From positions 1 through 31,697 of the IMG/VR virus record IMGVR_UViG_3300010354_000025: a DNA stretch of 31,697 bases; one strand, written 5' to 3'. A model generated the notes under the pieces. That model was given only the letters and a program-made list of their open reading frames with translations, was not told the origin of the DNA and did no database searches. This stretch comes from a virus. Both the position numbers and the translations under genes were made by a program. The first letter of the stretch is position 1; every line of letters starts with the position of its first letter. Shown piece by piece: positions 6,492 through 28,267 of the stretch.

Positions 6492-7148
6492 ATGAAGTAC
6501 GTTTATCCATATAGAAAAGGCTCTCAGAATTTTGATGTATTACATCATTCAGTCCAATGGCTTAAATGCTTTGATCCCGAAGCTGAAGTTTATATCATAG
6601 GAGACCTTCATCCTGATGGATATTCAATACCAATTCAAACTCTACCAATTCGAGGATGCGATGTTACAAACAAAATACTTCATTTTGCAAGAATTTACTC
6701 AGGTACATTTTGCTATATGAATGATGATTTCTTTATTGGCAAGAACTTCCGCTTTGATAGAATACTTCACAGCAATGAGATGGAGATCAATCCGAAATAT
6801 GCTCCGACATATCAAGAAGCTATGCAGAACACTATTGACTTCTTGAAATCAAATGGGAAGACAACATTTAACTATGAATGTCATCAACCTGTACTTATGG
6901 ATTCTGATAAGCTCCTTGCTCTCTTCGATACTATCACATGGAAACAGCACAATCACTTTATCAAATCAATGTATCTGAATTACTATGGATGCTATCATGT
7001 ACAAGGTGAGAATCTAAAGGTAGCAAATGACATCCGTAAAGCATCTGAATTCATCACTAAATATGGATCATTCAGCACAGGAGATACTTGGTTTAATCAG
7101 AAAGCTCAGCGAGAATTTATTACCAAACGCTTAGCTTATTCTGTGTAG
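6492..7148 (+). CDS. Stealth-like sugar-phosphotransferase / glycosyltransferase
   Basis: This is the only gene on the plus strand. From the ATG at 6492 (MKYVYPYRKG) it encodes 218 residues; an ATG at 6477 would add five. The order of motifs fits Stealth proteins (hexose-1-phosphoryltransferases of capsule synthesis): an N-terminal strand and helix, EVYIIGD, then CYMNDDFFIGK with a paired aspartate as in Stealth region CR2, then YECHQPVLMDSDKL as in CR3. It is shorter than most family members, as are related phage copies. It overlaps the end of the tape-measure gene tail to tail by 29 nt and diverges from the protease gene. It probably alters a surface sugar, of host or virion, and behaves like a moron gene. 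A TATTTTTG box at 6480-6487 lies five bases before the ATG, which could mean leaderless transcription; no -33 box is visible. Confidence 0.65.
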   Translation: MKYVYPYRKGSQNFDVLHHSVQWLKCFDPEAEVYIIGDLHPDGYSIPIQTLPIRGCDVTNKILHFARIYSGTFCYMNDDFFIGKNFRFDRILHSNEMEINPKYAPTYQEAMQNTIDFLKSNGKTTFNYECHQPVLMDSDKLLALFDTITWKQHNHFIKSMYLNYYGCYHVQGENLKVANDIRKASEFITKYGSFSTGDTWFNQKAQREFITKRLAYSV

Positions 7149-9513
7149 CTACCTTATTCTGAGTACCTGTAATATCACTCTCTAAGACATAAACTGTTGT
7201 CATGCCTTCATTCGTCTGAGATACAAGTCCTGCTGTGCTTGTACTCTGTCCGAAGTTATTCATGTTCATTCCTGCTGATCCTAACTCCGATCCTGTTGCA
7301 CCTGCGCTGAATCCAGTTCCTGCTGCCCCCATAGATGGAGCAGTACCTCCTTGATATTTAGTAGCTGTGATAGCTGCTATCTGTGCAAGTCCAATACCCA
7401 CCGCAGCAGCGATACCTGCTATACCCGCAGGTGATGGAGGAGGACCAAACATAGCGATGGCTTTAGCAATAGCACTCGCAGTATCAATACCAACTTGAGC
7501 AATCCTTAAAGCCTTGTCTCTGTTGAATTGTTGTTTCTTTATCTTCTCAGTCTCATTGAATAGCTTTAATTCTGTTGCATATTTTGTCGCTGCATATTGC
7601 TTATCTAAAGCATCCTTTTGTTCAGCAGATAGATTGCCTTGCTCTAATTCTGTCTTATATTTAGCATCAAGTACTTTTAATTCGTCTTGAGTTTGCATCT
7701 CAAGAGCTTGAAGTCTTGCATTCTGTAAGTCATCAATAGCAGCATTGAAAGATGATATTTGATCCTTGATATATTGAGCAGTCTCAATGGCTCTATTCAA
7801 CCTTTCAGCTTGTAAATCCTGAGACATCTTAGCATATTTCTGCTCAATAGCATATATCTCTCCTTCTGTCAATTCTTTATTTGATAATTCCTGTGCTTTC
7901 TGAGAATCTAATAGTGCTTGTCTTGCTTCCCAATTTTTATCGTCTTGAATTATCTGCCCTTGTAAATATCCTTGAGCATCCCTGAATTCTTTATCTCTCA
8001 ATCTCTCAATGAATGCAGCTTCTCTTTCTAAAAGTTGCTGTTTACTCATTGTGCCTTGAGCAATTATTTCTAATTCATTAGATACTCTAATACGTTGTAA
8101 TTTCAATATTTCTAACGAACCTATTTCTATCGCTTTCTTTTCTTTATCTGCATTTTTTACAGCATTCTCTGTGTACTTTGTATTTCCATCGCTTAGAGTG
8201 AAAATATCAGTACTTGCTTTCAATGCTGACTTTCCATAGTTCTCTAATCGAGTAGTAGCTTTTGATAGTTCTAATTCATTTTCCTTAATTCTTTTATTTA
8301 CCTTTTCATATTCAATAGCTAATTGCTCATTAGCATATCCCAAGCCAGTAGATACTCTTACTCCAAATTCATCCGTTTCATAAGTCTGCTTTCTCTTTAA
8401 TGCTCCTTCTTTTACTAACTGATTCAATCTTAATTCATCTTGAGCAAGTTGCTGTTTGAGTTTAGATTGCTTTCTAAGATTAGCCACTATCAACTCCTCA
8501 CTTGATTGTAACTGAAACTTGGCAGTTTGATAAGCGAGATAGTTTTGTAATTCCTTATTCAACTGATTCTGAAATGCAGCCTCATCAGATAGATTCTTTA
8601 ATGTAGTTCCGTATTTCTTATTGATCTCAGATATCAGTCTTGATCTTTCTTTACTCCCTTCGTTACTGGCTTGAAGTTGCACTATCATTGTAGCAAATGC
8701 AGCAGATTCCTTAGATACGAAATCCATCCTCTTTGCTTCATTCTTGGCTCTCTGATCAGCTAACTTCTGCTCCTCTTCACTTACACCTGTGACCATTTCT
8801 TTCAATGCTCCAAAATTGGCGATCAAAGCAGTAATTCCCACAATCACAGCTCCGATACCTGTACCTAACAAAGCAAGTCTAAATAGCTTCAATGCGCCTG
8901 TGGACTCTCCGACAGCAACAGTATATAATTTCTCCCATGCAGTTCTTATCTGAATACCTAATATCGCATCAGAATTGAGATTATTAGCAACAGTTGTAAC
9001 GGCATTGACTACACCTTGTACAGCTTGTAGCTTTACCATCGTCTGCACTAATGCCTCACTCTCTACGCCTGTCAGAGCAATAGCTGATTCAAAGCCTTGG
9101 AAGATCGCTGCTCCTGTTTCGACTCCTGCAAGAGTAGTATCTAACTTAACAAAGTCAGATGAGAGTGCTGTAGTAGCAGCTTTCAAATCTCCTATCTGAT
9201 CCTTTAGCTGACCTGCTGCCTGAATAGCAGCCTGTCCAACAGGAGATTCCATTCCTGCCTGTGCAGCAATCGTTTGATACTGCTTCATGGTCTGAGTCAG
9301 CTCACGCATCGTAAGACCACCAGACTCAACTTTCTGATTAAGCTCCTTTAACTTCTGATCAAACGCATCAATACCCTTTCCCGATGCAGCAGTACTCTGC
9401 ACATCCTTGATGTCCTTATTCAGATCGCTTACAGCCTTATCAAAATTCTGAACATCTTGTACAGAATTTCCTGTATCAACTCTGAGTGAAAATACTGCTT
9501 CCTTAGTTGCCAT
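7120..9513 (-). CDS. Tail tape-measure protein
   Basis: The 797-residue protein is built of long charged helical stretches (residues about 1-150 and 240-690), interrupted by hydrophobic segments near residues 210-235 (LLGTGIGAVIVGITALIANFG) and 700-725 (PAGIAGIAAAVGIGLAQI), with a glycine- and serine-rich C-terminus. This is the classic design of a tape measure, which fixes tail length and is released during DNA entry. At the usual 0.15 nm per residue it would predict a tail of about 120 nm (inference). It starts at the stop of the fibre gene upstream, and its last 29 nt overlap the convergent plus-strand gene. Confidence 0.85.
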   Translation of the reverse strand: MATKEAVFSLRVDTGNSVQDVQNFDKAVSDLNKDIKDVQSTAASGKGIDAFDQKLKELNQKVESGGLTMRELTQTMKQYQTIAAQAGMESPVGQAAIQAAGQLKDQIGDLKAATTALSSDFVKLDTTLAGVETGAAIFQGFESAIALTGVESEALVQTMVKLQAVQGVVNAVTTVANNLNSDAILGIQIRTAWEKLYTVAVGESTGALKLFRLALLGTGIGAVIVGITALIANFGALKEMVTGVSEEEQKLADQRAKNEAKRMDFVSKESAAFATMIVQLQASNEGSKERSRLISEINKKYGTTLKNLSDEAAFQNQLNKELQNYLAYQTAKFQLQSSEELIVANLRKQSKLKQQLAQDELRLNQLVKEGALKRKQTYETDEFGVRVSTGLGYANEQLAIEYEKVNKRIKENELELSKATTRLENYGKSALKASTDIFTLSDGNTKYTENAVKNADKEKKAIEIGSLEILKLQRIRVSNELEIIAQGTMSKQQLLEREAAFIERLRDKEFRDAQGYLQGQIIQDDKNWEARQALLDSQKAQELSNKELTEGEIYAIEQKYAKMSQDLQAERLNRAIETAQYIKDQISSFNAAIDDLQNARLQALEMQTQDELKVLDAKYKTELEQGNLSAEQKDALDKQYAATKYATELKLFNETEKIKKQQFNRDKALRIAQVGIDTASAIAKAIAMFGPPPSPAGIAGIAAAVGIGLAQIAAITATKYQGGTAPSMGAAGTGFSAGATGSELGSAGMNMNNFGQSTSTAGLVSQTNEGMTTVYVLESDITGTQNKVATQNKLSVW

Positions 9514-24044: not shown

Positions 24045-24253
24045 TCTTCTGATTTAAAGGTTTGGTTGTAATAATCTTTTGGATATTTAAAATATCCTGA
24101 TCCTTCGCAATAATCTTCATACCAATCATTTGCAAATTGTATCATCTTCTCTTTCTCCATTTCCTCTGCTTTCTTAAACAATTCTAAGATATGATCCTTC
24201 ACTATCTCTTCTTTTCGATAGGCTTCAAAAAGCCATTGTACTGCTGTTTTCAT
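24041..24253 (-). CDS. Hypothetical protein, TAVxWL family copy 2 (70 aa)
   Basis: The start at 24253 (MKTAVQWLFEAYRKEEI) matches the N-terminus of its paralogue at 21974-22204; a start at 24268 would add five residues overlapping the primase. The product has an acidic helix FKKAEEMEKEKMIQFANDWY and a tyrosine-rich C-terminus. No function is known. Confidence 0.65.
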   Translation of the reverse strand: MKTAVQWLFEAYRKEEIVKDHILELFKKAEEMEKEKMIQFANDWYEDYCEGSGYFKYPKDYYNQTFKSEE

Positions 24254-24254
24254 G

Positions 24255-26486
24255 TTATTTGTTTTCAAATTCTTTTACCCATCTATGTATAGTTATTCTT
24301 GACACCTCAAGTATTTCTGCAACGTGTGACCTATTGAAGTCTGGATCATTTCGATACATTGCTTTTACTTGTTCCTTAGGTGACATGGATGAATTCATAG
24401 ACGATATCTGTCTTAACTTATTCTTTTCCTTCATATCTACCTTTACAAGTTTACTCATATTAATGAAATAATCTGACAGTATCTCAGCATCGAGAATGCT
24501 TTGCTTTTGAATAACCAGCATATTAGTATCATCATTGATTGCTGATCTTACTACCTGCAATATCATTGAGAATCTCGGAATATAACTCTTTTGCTTTGGG
24601 AGCATAGATTTCATGTACTCATTCTCCTCATCTGAATTTTGAATGTCTGTAAGTTTATCATGAATCCTCATCCATTCCTTTGATGCTTGATTATCAAACT
24701 GAGCTACCATATTTTCAATCTCTCCCTTATCATTGAATCTCAAGAATTTGTTTTGAAACAGATTCCTAATTCCATCTATGAATGCTCTATACCATTCAAT
24801 CAAATCAGGATTCATGTGGTTATTGTTGTAGTAGTTCACTTCAAGATCAGGATAAGAGATAAGAATCCTATCAACGAATCCGTTATCTTTATTGTTTCCT
24901 GTTGTGAATTCCTCAAATACTCCAGGCTGAATTCCTCCTATCACAGGGATGAATGGCTTATCAACAAAAGCATTCTTGCTTGTTTTTCTATTCAATGAAA
25001 TGCTTGTGCCTGACCACGATGACAGCCAAAACTCAAGATCAGAACCTTGTCGATATTTGTTCATATCCTTGAACCATCCTGCTAACTCATCCTTGAATAC
25101 TCCAACAGCATTAGGATTTTGTTCATGTAGATCAATGAGAGCTTCGAGAGTGATGTCATTTACTATGAACTGCTTGTTGTCAGGCTTCTCAATCTTCTCA
25201 TTATGTTCCTTTTCTTTCTTATCAAGAGCTTCGTACTCTCTCCATTTAGCGTATTGTTTCTGATAATCTTTCTGCTCTCTGATGTTAGCTTCTCTGAGTG
25301 GAAATATCATCTGATTCACAGATGGAGTCTTACCAATGCCAGGCTTACCTACTATTGCAATCCATAGAGTACATATCTCTTGCCATCCTGGCTTAACTTC
25401 AATGCGTATAGTATTTCCAATGATTAAAGATATCACCCACAAGAATGAGCATCCCATGTAATCAATCGACAATCCTAATGTCTCAGATGATTGAATTATA
25501 TATTGCTGTATCTCATTCGGAAATATCTCAATGGGAAATTTGATTCTATCTATCTTCTCCTTTGGTATTGGCTCTGCTGCTTCAATCTTAGGCATCTTAC
25601 GAGAGCCATATCCTTCGGAGTACAGCTCTGATGCTGCCTTAGTGAAGTCTCCATTGTGATATTTGTAAGAGTATATAGCAAATGGAGTCAATAGCTTCTC
25701 ATGAGGATATGTAGTACCTGTACTGAACAGATACATACATCCTGAATCCTTGTAGATATATCCAGAATGTGGAGATGTTGCTCCATTTCTTCTTATGATA
25801 TAACTTGACGCAGTATTTCGAACTATGGTAAACTCATCGAATATTAAATCCATAGCAGAATTTCTTGAGTTGAAATCCTCCCAAGGTGATATCTCAGTAT
25901 CTTTCTGTGGCTTGTATTCGCTTTTCTTAGGCTCATCTATCAAAGGCTCTGAAACATAGTTGTATGTGCGAGATATGGACCAAATGATCTCTCTTTCAGT
26001 TTCAGTAATGTAATCAATCTGATGATAGTTTCTATTTGTTATCATCTTATCATATAGCACAACGTATCCTCCTTTACCTCTGCTCTCTATGATTGCCTCT
26101 GATTTGTCTTTAAGCTTTGCAATCTTTACTGATCCTCTTGGCTCTTTACATTTGTAGATGATGTGATATCCTGCATTCATTGTACGAGCTATCACTACCT
26201 TATCCCTAAATCCTTCGATATTATCCTCAAGGAATGACAGGTACTCATCCCACCATGCTTTCTGCTCTGCAAGTCCAACAATTACTTTGAGATCAACATC
26301 AATACATTCAATATCGTTGATGCCTGTTACCATTCCCCAGATAGGAGCATTGATAGCTTCAATCTCATCAGGAGTATATGGTTTTGTTTGTCTATCCTTC
26401 CATTTGCCAATAGGAATCTTATTCTCATTGACAGGAATGATGCTTAATCCTTCAGACGCTAATTTTCTTAGATATGCTTTAGTCAT
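24255..26486 (-). CDS. Prim-pol / DUF3987 primase-helicase
   Basis: The 743-residue product joins two replication domains. The N-terminal prim-pol part has ECIDVDLK (60-67) with the catalytic DxD, AGYHIIYK (105-112) with the conserved histidine, and ESRGKGGYVVLY (134-145). The C-terminal part is a DUF3987 ATPase: IAIVGKPGIGKTPSV with Walker A at 380-387, GVFKDELAGWF with the Walker B-like acidic pair, and GNNKDNGFVDRIL with a sensor arginine. A helix-turn-helix (SHVAEILEVSRITIHRWVKE) ends the protein. It should make primers and unwind DNA at the origin, which lies directly upstream. No phage DNA polymerase is encoded, so host polymerase would extend. Confidence 0.88.
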   Translation of the reverse strand: MTKAYLRKLASEGLSIIPVNENKIPIGKWKDRQTKPYTPDEIEAINAPIWGMVTGINDIECIDVDLKVIVGLAEQKAWWDEYLSFLEDNIEGFRDKVVIARTMNAGYHIIYKCKEPRGSVKIAKLKDKSEAIIESRGKGGYVVLYDKMITNRNYHQIDYITETEREIIWSISRTYNYVSEPLIDEPKKSEYKPQKDTEISPWEDFNSRNSAMDLIFDEFTIVRNTASSYIIRRNGATSPHSGYIYKDSGCMYLFSTGTTYPHEKLLTPFAIYSYKYHNGDFTKAASELYSEGYGSRKMPKIEAAEPIPKEKIDRIKFPIEIFPNEIQQYIIQSSETLGLSIDYMGCSFLWVISLIIGNTIRIEVKPGWQEICTLWIAIVGKPGIGKTPSVNQMIFPLREANIREQKDYQKQYAKWREYEALDKKEKEHNEKIEKPDNKQFIVNDITLEALIDLHEQNPNAVGVFKDELAGWFKDMNKYRQGSDLEFWLSSWSGTSISLNRKTSKNAFVDKPFIPVIGGIQPGVFEEFTTGNNKDNGFVDRILISYPDLEVNYYNNNHMNPDLIEWYRAFIDGIRNLFQNKFLRFNDKGEIENMVAQFDNQASKEWMRIHDKLTDIQNSDEENEYMKSMLPKQKSYIPRFSMILQVVRSAINDDTNMLVIQKQSILDAEILSDYFINMSKLVKVDMKEKNKLRQISSMNSSMSPKEQVKAMYRNDPDFNRSHVAEILEVSRITIHRWVKEFENK

Positions 26487-26489
26487 GAT

Positions 26490-26547
26490 AAAAAGAATGC
26501 CCTCCCAAATCCGTACGAGCTGCGACCTCGTCTTTCATTGAAAGGGC
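26490..26547 (-). promoter_or_regulatory. Structured leader / terminator-like element before the primase gene
   Basis: On the minus strand GCCCTTTC pairs with GGGAGGGC (eight pairs, two G-U), enclosing an inner ACGAG/CTCGT hairpin; the outer stem is followed by ATTCTTTTTATC and then the primase ATG four bases on. This could be a terminator or attenuator, or a folded leader that limits primase translation. A role as single-strand origin is also possible. Confidence 0.55.
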
Positions 26548-26640
26548 AATAATGTTTTTGATATGAATTGTCGCAGTATTCATGTTTGCAATATTACTAA
26601 AAAAAATTAATGTACCAGTTTTATTTTCTATTTAACATAA

Positions 26641-26901
26641 TACTATATATATATAGATAGATAGATAGATAGATATTATATTATTAAATATTCAAATGTT
26701 ACACTTTTTCCCTTATCAACTGTAACATTGTTACACTAAATGTTACACTAAATGTTACACTAAAATCCTTGTGTTTATCAGCGTTTCAGAGCAAATGTTA
26801 CAATGTTACACTAATTTTTTTTTTTATTTTTTTTTTGGAGTTGAATTTTTTAATTTATTAGAATGTTACTGTAACACTGTAACAATGTTACACCTGTTAC
26901 A
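26641..26901. other. Candidate replication origin with TGTTACA iterons
   Basis: The non-coding region carries twelve copies of TGTTACA or its reverse TGTAACA (one with a changed last base) between 26697 and 26901. Three form exact 12-bp tandem repeats (TGTTACACTAAA at 26729, 26741, 26753). Two perfect palindromes, TGTAACA-N-TGTTACA, lie at 26721-26735 and 26878-26892, and a third, TGTTAC-T-GTAACA, at 26864-26876. Between them lie long T runs (26815-26836) and an (AT)n/(GATA)5 tract at 26644-26675, likely easy to melt. Such clustered iterons with AT-rich DNA beside primase and DnaA-like genes fit an initiator-driven origin. No consensus DnaA box was seen. Confidence 0.75.
26656..26675. repeat. 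GATA tetranucleotide microsatellite, five copies
   Basis: Five exact GATA units follow an alternating TA tract. Together they make an easily melted segment at the left side of the iteron region, and the copy number may vary. Confidence 0.9.
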
Positions 26902-27166
26902 AATAGAATTCCACCCAGTTTTGAATCTGATTAACGAATGAATAAGGCTGCTTAATGCATAGCTTATGACCTATTCTCTGGATCGGACATTCAAATTCAG
27001 CTCGAAGCTCTCTGATATCCTTCTCAATGATTGATCTGCTCCATTCATATTGCATGATATAATTTATCTTTTCCTGTATCTGATGGATGTTGTAATCCTT
27101 CTTTTGCAACATATATACAATGATGCTCATTCGTCTGATTTTATCTTTCATTTCGTACTTAGGCAT
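26897..27166 (-). CDS. Winged-helix-like DNA-binding protein (89 aa)
   Basis: The ATG at 27166 (MPKYEMKDKIRRMS) is one base after the methyltransferase stop; a TTG five codons earlier is a weaker choice. The product resembles the N-terminal helix-turn-helix of DeoR/WYL regulators: IVYMLQKKDYNIHQIQEKIN, YEWSRSIIEKDIRELRAEFE, CPIQ, then LCIKQPYSF. Its gene ends inside the last iteron, so it is a good candidate to bind the TGTTACA motifs, either as initiator or as repressor. This is an inference from position. Confidence 0.6.
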   Translation of the reverse strand: MPKYEMKDKIRRMSIIVYMLQKKDYNIHQIQEKINYIMQYEWSRSIIEKDIRELRAEFECPIQRIGHKLCIKQPYSFVNQIQNWVEFYL

Positions 27167-27167
27167 T

Positions 27168-27836
27168 TTATAAGTAATCAAAAATTGATATTTGTTTTTC
27201 GTCTTGTTTTTTAATTATTCCTAATGCGGTTTCAAGTATTGTTTTACCTATTTCATAATCTACGAGGTTACGAGCAATTTTAGCAAGTGGTTGAGAACCT
27301 TTATACTTTCTAAAATCATAATCGTGAAATTCAGAAAGCCTATTAACCTCATCATTTCCTTGACATACTCCAGCTTTTCTTGTTTCAATATTAGTATTAA
27401 TTATAAAATTAGTCCAATATAAATGCCTATCTATTTCAATACCATTTATTAATGGCTCATAGTATGGTATTACATTCTCAACCACATATTTTCCGTCAAA
27501 ATGATGCTTTAAAAAAATAATTTCTTCATATAAAGATAAATCAGGAAAAATAGGACTTTTCCCATTTCTACCGTGTCCCCAAAATCTTGCACGGCTATGG
27601 CTTGGACAAGGTGGGCTACTCCATATAAAATCGAAATCTTTATAATGATCAAGTAAGAATTGGTGAGCATCCGTAACTATTACGTTATCATTTGGAAATC
27701 TTTCCTGGTATAATCTTGCAAGTTCTTCATCCAATTCCACGGCAGTTACTTCTATTTGTATACCTGCTTCTTCAGCAACCTCATCCCATTTGTATCGATT
27801 GCCTCCTAAACAAGAATATAAATTTAATATCTTCAT
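27168..27836 (-). CDS. Compact DNA cytosine-5 methyltransferase
   Basis: The 222-residue product has motif I-like LNLYSCLGGNRYKW (4-17), an acidic VELDEELA for SAM, the catalytic SPPCPSHSRARFW (cysteine in the PC motif), YVVENVIPYYEP with the ENV motif, and a C-terminal motif X-like QPLAKIARNLVDY. The usual QxRxR motif is replaced by DRHLYWTN, and there is no room for a large target recognition domain, so it is shorter than the normal 300-400 residues. It may protect phage DNA from host restriction or methylate a short site. It lies next to the DnaA-like gene and could also mark the origin. Confidence 0.78.
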   Translation of the reverse strand: MKILNLYSCLGGNRYKWDEVAEEAGIQIEVTAVELDEELARLYQERFPNDNVIVTDAHQFLLDHYKDFDFIWSSPPCPSHSRARFWGHGRNGKSPIFPDLSLYEEIIFLKHHFDGKYVVENVIPYYEPLINGIEIDRHLYWTNFIINTNIETRKAGVCQGNDEVNRLSEFHDYDFRKYKGSQPLAKIARNLVDYEIGKTILETALGIIKKQDEKQISIFDYL

Positions 27837-27844
27837 ATCTTCGA

Positions 27845-28267
27845 TTACAGCAACTTTTTGAACTCCTCCTTAGTGATTATACCACTTATGCCACGAAATA
27901 CGTTCACATCAAGCGAAACAAAGCGAATTGATATATCTACTAAGCTGCCATGAATCGAATTTGTTCGAACGTGGATATTTTGATCAGCAAGATCATTCAC
28001 ATCTACGTTATAAATCTCACGATATAAGTCATCAATAGCTTTAAGATATTCAGCATCTTTTACCTCCATCCATTTCTTATGTTCTCTGATTCCATGAAGT
28101 ACTGTTGCGTGATCTCTTTCAACAATATCTCCTACTTGACTGAGCGATGGAATCTCCTCGTACAATTCAGCCATGATGAAATGTCGCTTATACAATATTT
28201 CTCTCTTTCTTGATCTGCTTGTGAGATCATACTTTTCTACTAACTCGATTAACTTTTGCTTTTTCAC
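27845..28267 (-). CDS. DnaA domain IV-like protein (140 aa)
   Basis: The start codon is GTG at 28267, overlapping the TGA of the upstream gene. Residues 16-60 (SRSRKREILYKRHFIMAELY ... LSQVGDIVERDHATVLHGI) carry the helix-turn-helix signature of the DnaA C-terminal DNA-binding domain, where the RDHATVLH segment makes base contacts. The AAA+ domain of DnaA is absent. The C-terminal half is a separate domain of unknown function. It could steer host DnaA, bind phage origin DNA, or block host initiation. It is a common type in Bacteroidota phages. Confidence 0.72.
   Translation of the reverse strand: MKKQKLIELVEKYDLTSRSRKREILYKRHFIMAELYEEIPSLSQVGDIVERDHATVLHGIREHKKWMEVKDAEYLKAIDDLYREIYNVDVNDLADQNIHVRTNSIHGSLVDISIRFVSLDVNVFRGISGIITKEEFKKLL

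Follow-up and report, generated by a model that had tools for sequence, protein, structure and literature searches.

The repeat array and its genomic setting

The window analyzed here is the complete IMG/VR virus record IMGVR_UViG_3300010354_000025 (31,697 bp), which carries a 123-bp terminal direct repeat and thus represents a circle of 31,574 bp. The genome encodes TerL (terminase), a portal protein, an Erf-type annealing protein, and an exonuclease. An array of short repeats (iterons), examined as a candidate replication origin, was located between an open reading frame (ORF) of 94 aa and the gene of a 743-aa protein in which Prim-Pol and DUF3987 domains were recognized, hereafter the primase-helicase.

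Eleven exact TGTTACA/TGTAACA motifs in both orientations were found within 205 bp (26697-26901). The original prediction had counted twelve; their clustering was confirmed, the number was not. The whole window contained 18 copies (4.5 expected), with the seven copies outside the array being scattered singletons. The densest 205 bp held 11 copies, compared with a maximum of 3 in any 205 bp over 100 dinucleotide shuffles. The non-coding interval extended from 26487 to 26896, and the last motif ran into the stop codon of the 94-aa ORF. The three perfect palindromes (15, 13, and 15 bp long), the triple 12-bp tandem repeat, and the T-rich and GATA/TA tracts that had been described earlier were all present. 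The features of the array and of the primase-helicase were as follows.

26697-26901, no strand: iteron array, 11 copies of TGTAACA/TGTTACA (motif count and shuffles)
26811-26869, no strand: AT-rich core (A/T runs) between the iteron groups, probable melting region (comparison of arrays)
26760-26795, minus strand: spacer block TTTGCTCTGAAACGCTGATAAACACAAGGATTTTAG, corresponding to CTCTGAAACCCTTATAAACACT in many relatives, DnaA-box-like at most (comparison of arrays)
26729-26764, plus strand: 12-bp unit TGTTACACTAAA in three tandem copies (repeat search)
26721-26735, no strand: 15-bp perfect palindrome TGTAACATTGTTACA (TGTAACA-T-TGTTACA)
26864-26876, no strand: 13-bp perfect palindrome TGTTACTGTAACA (TGTTAC-T-GTAACA)
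26878-26892, no strand: 15-bp perfect palindrome TGTAACAATGTTACA (TGTAACA-A-TGTTACA)
26643-26675, plus strand: TA/GATA repeat tract adjoining the array
26815-26837: T-rich tract
24255-26486, minus strand: PrimPol, MCM-like AAA+ (DUF3987), and helix-turn-helix (HTH) replication protein, 743 aa, proposed initiator (Prim-Pol, E = 6.9e-8; DUF3987, E = 9.4e-56)
24261-24380, minus strand: coding region of the three-helix HTH at the C-terminus (residues 703-742), which is proposed to read the iterons
24261-24299, minus strand: recognition helix (residues 730-742), in which R730 co-varies with base 2 and R735 with bases 6-7

A single copy of the DnaA-box-like TGATAAACA was found, in the spacer; the array, with TGTAACA as its word, contained no oriC-type cluster of TTATNCACA boxes. 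An Rfam scan returned no matches at gathering thresholds and only chance-level matches at relaxed thresholds.

When the model of the primase-helicase was compared with known structures, its N-terminal domain matched the pRN1 prim-pol (1rni, Z = 14.8), and residues 290-690 matched MCM AAA+ rings (Z of approximately 15.6, with approximately 275 residues at 4 Å). These comparisons returned relatives of the primase and AAA+ domains, and the HTH was seen within the whole-protein model as three helices at residues 703-742 (predicted local distance difference test, pLDDT, approximately 72-86). The weak Pfam matches of the tail were almost all to HTH families. No Toprim-type primase domain was found in the protein, which has a Prim-Pol/AEP domain instead.

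Array anatomy in related loci

Four viral-contig searches and one genome-contig search with DUF3987 proteins as queries yielded 177 DUF3987 loci, the window included, and two further viral-contig searches later supplied fresh loci, so that overall more than 200 relatives were compared. Word and residue counts were based on 84 dereplicated loci and their proteins. The exact 36-bp repeat had no match elsewhere in IMG/VR, which suggested an unconserved array; this idea was dropped once arrays were sought de novo as the densest 7-mer of each locus. Words were set in a common frame partly by eye, with 13 loci framed by hand.

Most of the 177 loci showed one comparable array adjoining the DUF3987 gene, made of another word. 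TGTTACA was missing from the closest relatives, yet these carried an equivalent array; its absence from relatives that keep the same genes, proposed earlier as a refutation of the origin, is therefore misleading. The words seen were TGTCCCA, TGTGCAC, TGTAAAG, TGTGTAA, TGTAAAC, TGTGAAA, TGTAACC, TGTGCCC, TGTCGCA, TGCGCAA, TTTAAAC, TTCAATT, TTCAACC, and others. TGTAACA itself reappeared in six loci (L128, L148, L151, L152, L154, and L155), the proteins of which were only approximately 50% identical to that of the window.

The array lay 5′ of the DUF3987 gene in 51 of the 84 dereplicated loci and directly 3′ of it in 33, the primase-helicase being the one constant neighbor. The shared layout consisted of outer iterons, a spacer, inner iterons, an A/T core of 40-60 bp, an inner pair, a second spacer, and outer iterons, spanning approximately 190-270 bp (372 bp in L017 through one outlying site). 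The window deviated from this layout in that its first iteron group abuts the core with no spacer. Every compared array had a 40-bp block of 85-100% A+T between iteron groups.

The genome-contig search contributed only three loci, labeled Psychroflexus, Bacteroidetes, and Sphingomonadaceae. Judging by these few labeled contigs, the hosts of this widespread group of uncultured phages are probably Bacteroidetes. Named phages and plasmids gave just partial, distant helicase or primase matches (<33% identity, covering approximately half of the protein or slightly more). DnaA-IV-like genes were present in Olleya phage Harreka and a Rhizobium phage, with no array found nearby.

Co-variation between the array word and the C-terminal HTH

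The array word co-varied with the last approximately 40 residues of the primase-helicase. When tails were sorted by word, VSR occurred with TGT and TGC words and VSL or VSV with TTT and TTC words. Among the 84 dereplicated proteins, G2 was paired with R730 or K730 in 61/61 cases and T2 with L730, V730, or I730 in 22/22 cases. At bases 6-7, AA occurred with N735 (19/19), AC with K735 (33/35), and CA with R735 (10/10). The window conformed to both pairings (TGTAACA, R730, R735). The T2 state required 10 gains or losses by parsimony, and base and residue class agreed in 84/84 loci. Approximately 20 different words and approximately 31 word changes on the tree were observed for one conserved initiator, and single residues can therefore be matched to single bases.

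Co-change along branches was evaluated on a tree built from residues 1-690, with all 743 columns ranked. For base 2, residue 730 ranked highest, with 10 of 11 base changes sharing a branch with a change in the residue (P = 2.6e-11, against P = 6.6e-4 for the column in second place), and residue 735 ranked highest for base 6 (P = 8.6e-8) and base 7 (P = 2.4e-6). Cross-validation, in which each locus was predicted solely from proteins less than 70% (or less than 60%) identical to its own, selected the same residues. Residue 730 was the best of the 743 columns for base 2 (82/84; baseline, 61), and residue 735 was the best for base 6 (75; baseline, 64), for base 7 (68; baseline, 42), and for bases 6-7 jointly (62, compared with a baseline of 35 and with 47 for the next column). 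Leaving out the hand-framed loci did not change which columns led. A reading of base 4 by residue 731 was also considered, given that R731 goes with G4 in the count table; cross-validation did not single out residue 731, and this candidate was discarded.

A prediction rule was recorded before new loci were examined and was then applied to 40 new loci less than 97% identical to any training protein. Success was defined as the named word reaching at least 75% of the count of the top 7-mer. The rule fitted 28 of the 40 loci (5000 permutations: mean, 10.8; maximum, 19). Four loci with the array 3′ of DUF3987 (L194, L197, L201, and L202) had the out-of-frame words TGGGTAA and TGCACGG/CCGTGCA together with phenylalanine at residue 734, possibly a further step of the code.

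Paired replacement of the array and the HTH

Two loci, L152 and L153, were approximately 90% identical in DNA over the 2.1-kb gene body and much of the flanks. Divergence between them was concentrated in two islands 2 kb apart, namely the array region (identity 0.29-0.51) and the last approximately 120 nt of the gene, which hold the HTH codons (0.19). In L147 and L172, where the array lies 3′ of the gene, a single contiguous replaced patch spanned both tail and array, and the core proteins of the pair were 99% identical. These sequence comparisons suggest matched evolution of the HTH and the iterons, which have been exchanged together many times, the rest of the protein remaining nearly unchanged.

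Probable origin function and alternative explanations

We consider it very probable that the array is the replication origin of the phage and that its iterons are bound by the phage's own PrimPol/MCM-like DUF3987 protein through the HTH, under an exchangeable and partly readable code. An iteron origin with its own initiator is supported because the repeat cluster adjoins the gene of the proposed initiator and the repeats flank an AT-rich region, and the conserved anatomy beside a replication gene in many relatives lends good support to the plasmid-like, iteron-type origin first proposed. In the proposed sequence of events, the HTHs of PrimPol-DUF3987 proteins would occupy the 7-bp iterons that flank the A/T core on either side; their AAA+ modules would assemble as a helicase, and the core would melt. 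The archaeal-type PrimPol domain would then prime synthesis, after which the host replisome would take over. G2 would be read by R730, with which the recognition helix begins, and the CA at positions 6-7 of TGTAACA by R735. The comparisons establish the array, its shared anatomy and linkage to the gene, the co-variation of residues with bases, and the paired replacement; physical binding, melting, and priming are inferred from the named protein families, and origin activity and the role of the host replisome are likewise inferences.

Several observations weigh against this interpretation. Arrays were weak or undetected at L013-L016 and L103-L105. Cumulative GC skew, which the original prediction had expected to turn at the array, showed no turn there (detrended minimum at 9,482, maximum at 24,095), although skew says little here because almost all genes are on one strand. 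When the 13 hand-framed loci were removed and another tree model was used, the branch test was weaker: residue 730 dropped to second for base 2 and residue 735 lost first place for base 6, probably owing in part to ties in the parsimony reconstruction. Cross-validation assigned no single column to base 4. The prediction rule failed in 12 of the 40 new loci, some of them because the counted word was shifted in frame and others as true exceptions (TGGGTAA; TGCACGG), and some words, for example TGGGTAA, cannot be expressed by the rule at all. In addition, the array of the window lies upstream of the gene, so an operator role is also conceivable.

The genes on the other side of the array are relevant to the alternatives.

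26897-27181, minus strand: 94-aa HTH-like ORF adjoining the array, confined to the window's own clade
27845-28267, minus strand: DnaA domain-IV-like protein (PF08299, E = 1.4e-9), perhaps an accessory factor and unlikely to be the iteron reader

The array could be an operator only, with the protein controlling transcription of its own gene and replication starting elsewhere. The upstream position of arrays of the window's class agrees with this, as does a TAnnTTTG promoter-like box after the array in most leaders of that class. Nevertheless, we regard it as improbable: 33 of the 84 arrays lie 3′ of the gene, a length of 200-260 bp places the array far from the promoter box, and conserved spacers together with a dozen sites surrounding an AT core are the anatomy of an origin and not of an operator. 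The array may have a regulatory role in addition to that of an origin. The DnaA domain-IV-like protein and the HTH-like protein of 94 residues (89 in the original prediction) had been named as candidate binders, and either might be the iteron binder and initiator in place of the primase-helicase. In the window's clade, both genes lie a short way upstream of the array, and TGT resembles part of a DnaA box. However, just 17 of the first 80 loci had a member of the 94-aa family. The DnaA-IV-like gene, which adjoins the array in most of the window's wider clade, was found in 109 of 177 loci, often kilobases distant, and was missing from the fetched sequence of others. In small tests, no column of the DnaA-IV-like protein stood out (best P = 2.4e-3 for the word and 5.8e-4 for base 7), and the central block was not associated with the gene (P = 0.27). 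The TTATAAACA block was consequently rejected as a DnaA-IV site, and the DnaA-IV-like protein, first suggested as the binder by its adjacency, was dropped on the distance, column, and block tests. It is the C-terminal HTH of the DUF3987 protein that co-varies with the motif instead, and we judge either of the two neighbors a very unlikely initiator. Least plausible of all is that the array serves partition, packaging, or, as a stoperator-like site, immunity. Short-repeat arrays at a single locus also occur in centromeres and immunity systems, but no ParA/B or repressor family was recognized among the scanned neighboring proteins of the window, and the co-varying partner of the array is a primase-helicase.

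Additional observations on the locus and its relatives

The leader between the array and the DUF3987 start could form an H-type pseudoknot on the minus strand (26499-26574), with arms 26570-26574/26522-26526 (GCGAC/GTCGC) and 26543-26547/26499-26503 (GCCCT/AGGGC) paired by eye. A pseudoknot followed by a T-run, with wholly different stem letters, was found in most relatives of the 5′ class (41/50 above threshold; shuffles, 15%) and in 13 of 32 leaders of 3′-class genes (shuffles, 12%). It had no match in Rfam and is perhaps an attenuator-like RNA.

Beside the 94-aa ORF, a short gene resembling C5 DNA methylases (222 aa, 27168-27836) matched just the first approximately 80 residues of its family and was approximately 69% identical in DNA to Flavobacterium phages hemulen and stinky. 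A pattern search with the 94-aa protein retrieved no relatives. Dense repeats that were not iterons were seen in L124 near position 2775 (AGCGTTG within a longer unit, 21 copies) and in L091 near position 7075 (GCTAACC, 13 copies). In L006, L073, and L075, short ORFs between the array and DUF3987 resembled, by eye only, HNH/NUMOD-type homing endonucleases, which recall origin-directed nucleases such as Odn.

Comparison with known systems

On the best reading, the proposed origin would work like those of satellite islands and of P4. The origin of phage-inducible chromosomal islands and Staphylococcus aureus pathogenicity islands (PICI/SaPI) has two sets of iterons, one on each side of an AT-rich region next to rep (PMC6092414); the same arrangement beside the replication gene was found here, and allelic Rep variants are a further likeness. 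PICI/SaPI are satellites without structural genes of their own, whereas the circular 31.6-kb record encodes TerL and a portal. The initiator also differs, combining PrimPol, MCM-like DUF3987, and HTH, and here the array is 5′ or 3′ of the gene, with many words and a graded code.

The P4 alpha protein unites primase, helicase, and iteron-binding domain in one polypeptide (PMC4234260, citing Ziegelin and Lanka 1995 and Yeo 2002). This single-protein domain layout is matched here, with origin binding by the HTH predicted; P4 alpha differs in its bacterial-type Toprim primase and its winged helix, the phage protein having an archaeal-type PrimPol, an MCM-like AAA+, and a small three-helix HTH instead. 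ORF904 of pRN1 likewise has a PrimPol domain of the same class at the N-terminus and a DNA-binding domain at the C-terminus, but pRN1, unlike the phage, has a stem-loop origin without iterons (PMC4234260) and a superfamily 3 (SF3) helicase. In the phage-inducible chromosomal island-like elements (PLE) of Vibrio cholerae, the DNA-binding domain of the initiator RepA co-varies with the origin iterons and is swapped as a module, and a phage nuclease selects for the swap (PMC8263062). Initiator-iteron co-variation and modular swapping are common to both systems; PLE are satellites with two specificity groups, iterons of approximately 30 bp, and a RepA_N initiator, whereas the phages here have another initiator and roughly 20 words, each of 7 bp. 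A helicase role, in fusion with primases, has been predicted for the DUF3987 domain (PMC5862659).

Both iteron origins and initiators that unite all functions in one protein have been described before, mainly in plasmids and satellites and with few specificity groups each. A limited literature search found no description of a residue-level origin code in phages. We give about even credence to the view that this uncultured phage group diversifies its origin specificity under conflict, through swaps of HTH-iteron cassettes and residue shifts, into some 20 mutually exclusive addresses written in a readable code; co-infecting relatives, satellites, and origin-directed nucleases are the candidate sources of conflict within that view. 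The arrays and their initiators offer naturally occurring data on how the target of an HTH changes, and the origin of an uncultured phage may be predictable from the protein alone. Whether origin specificity leads related phages to exclude or to tolerate one another thereby becomes testable.
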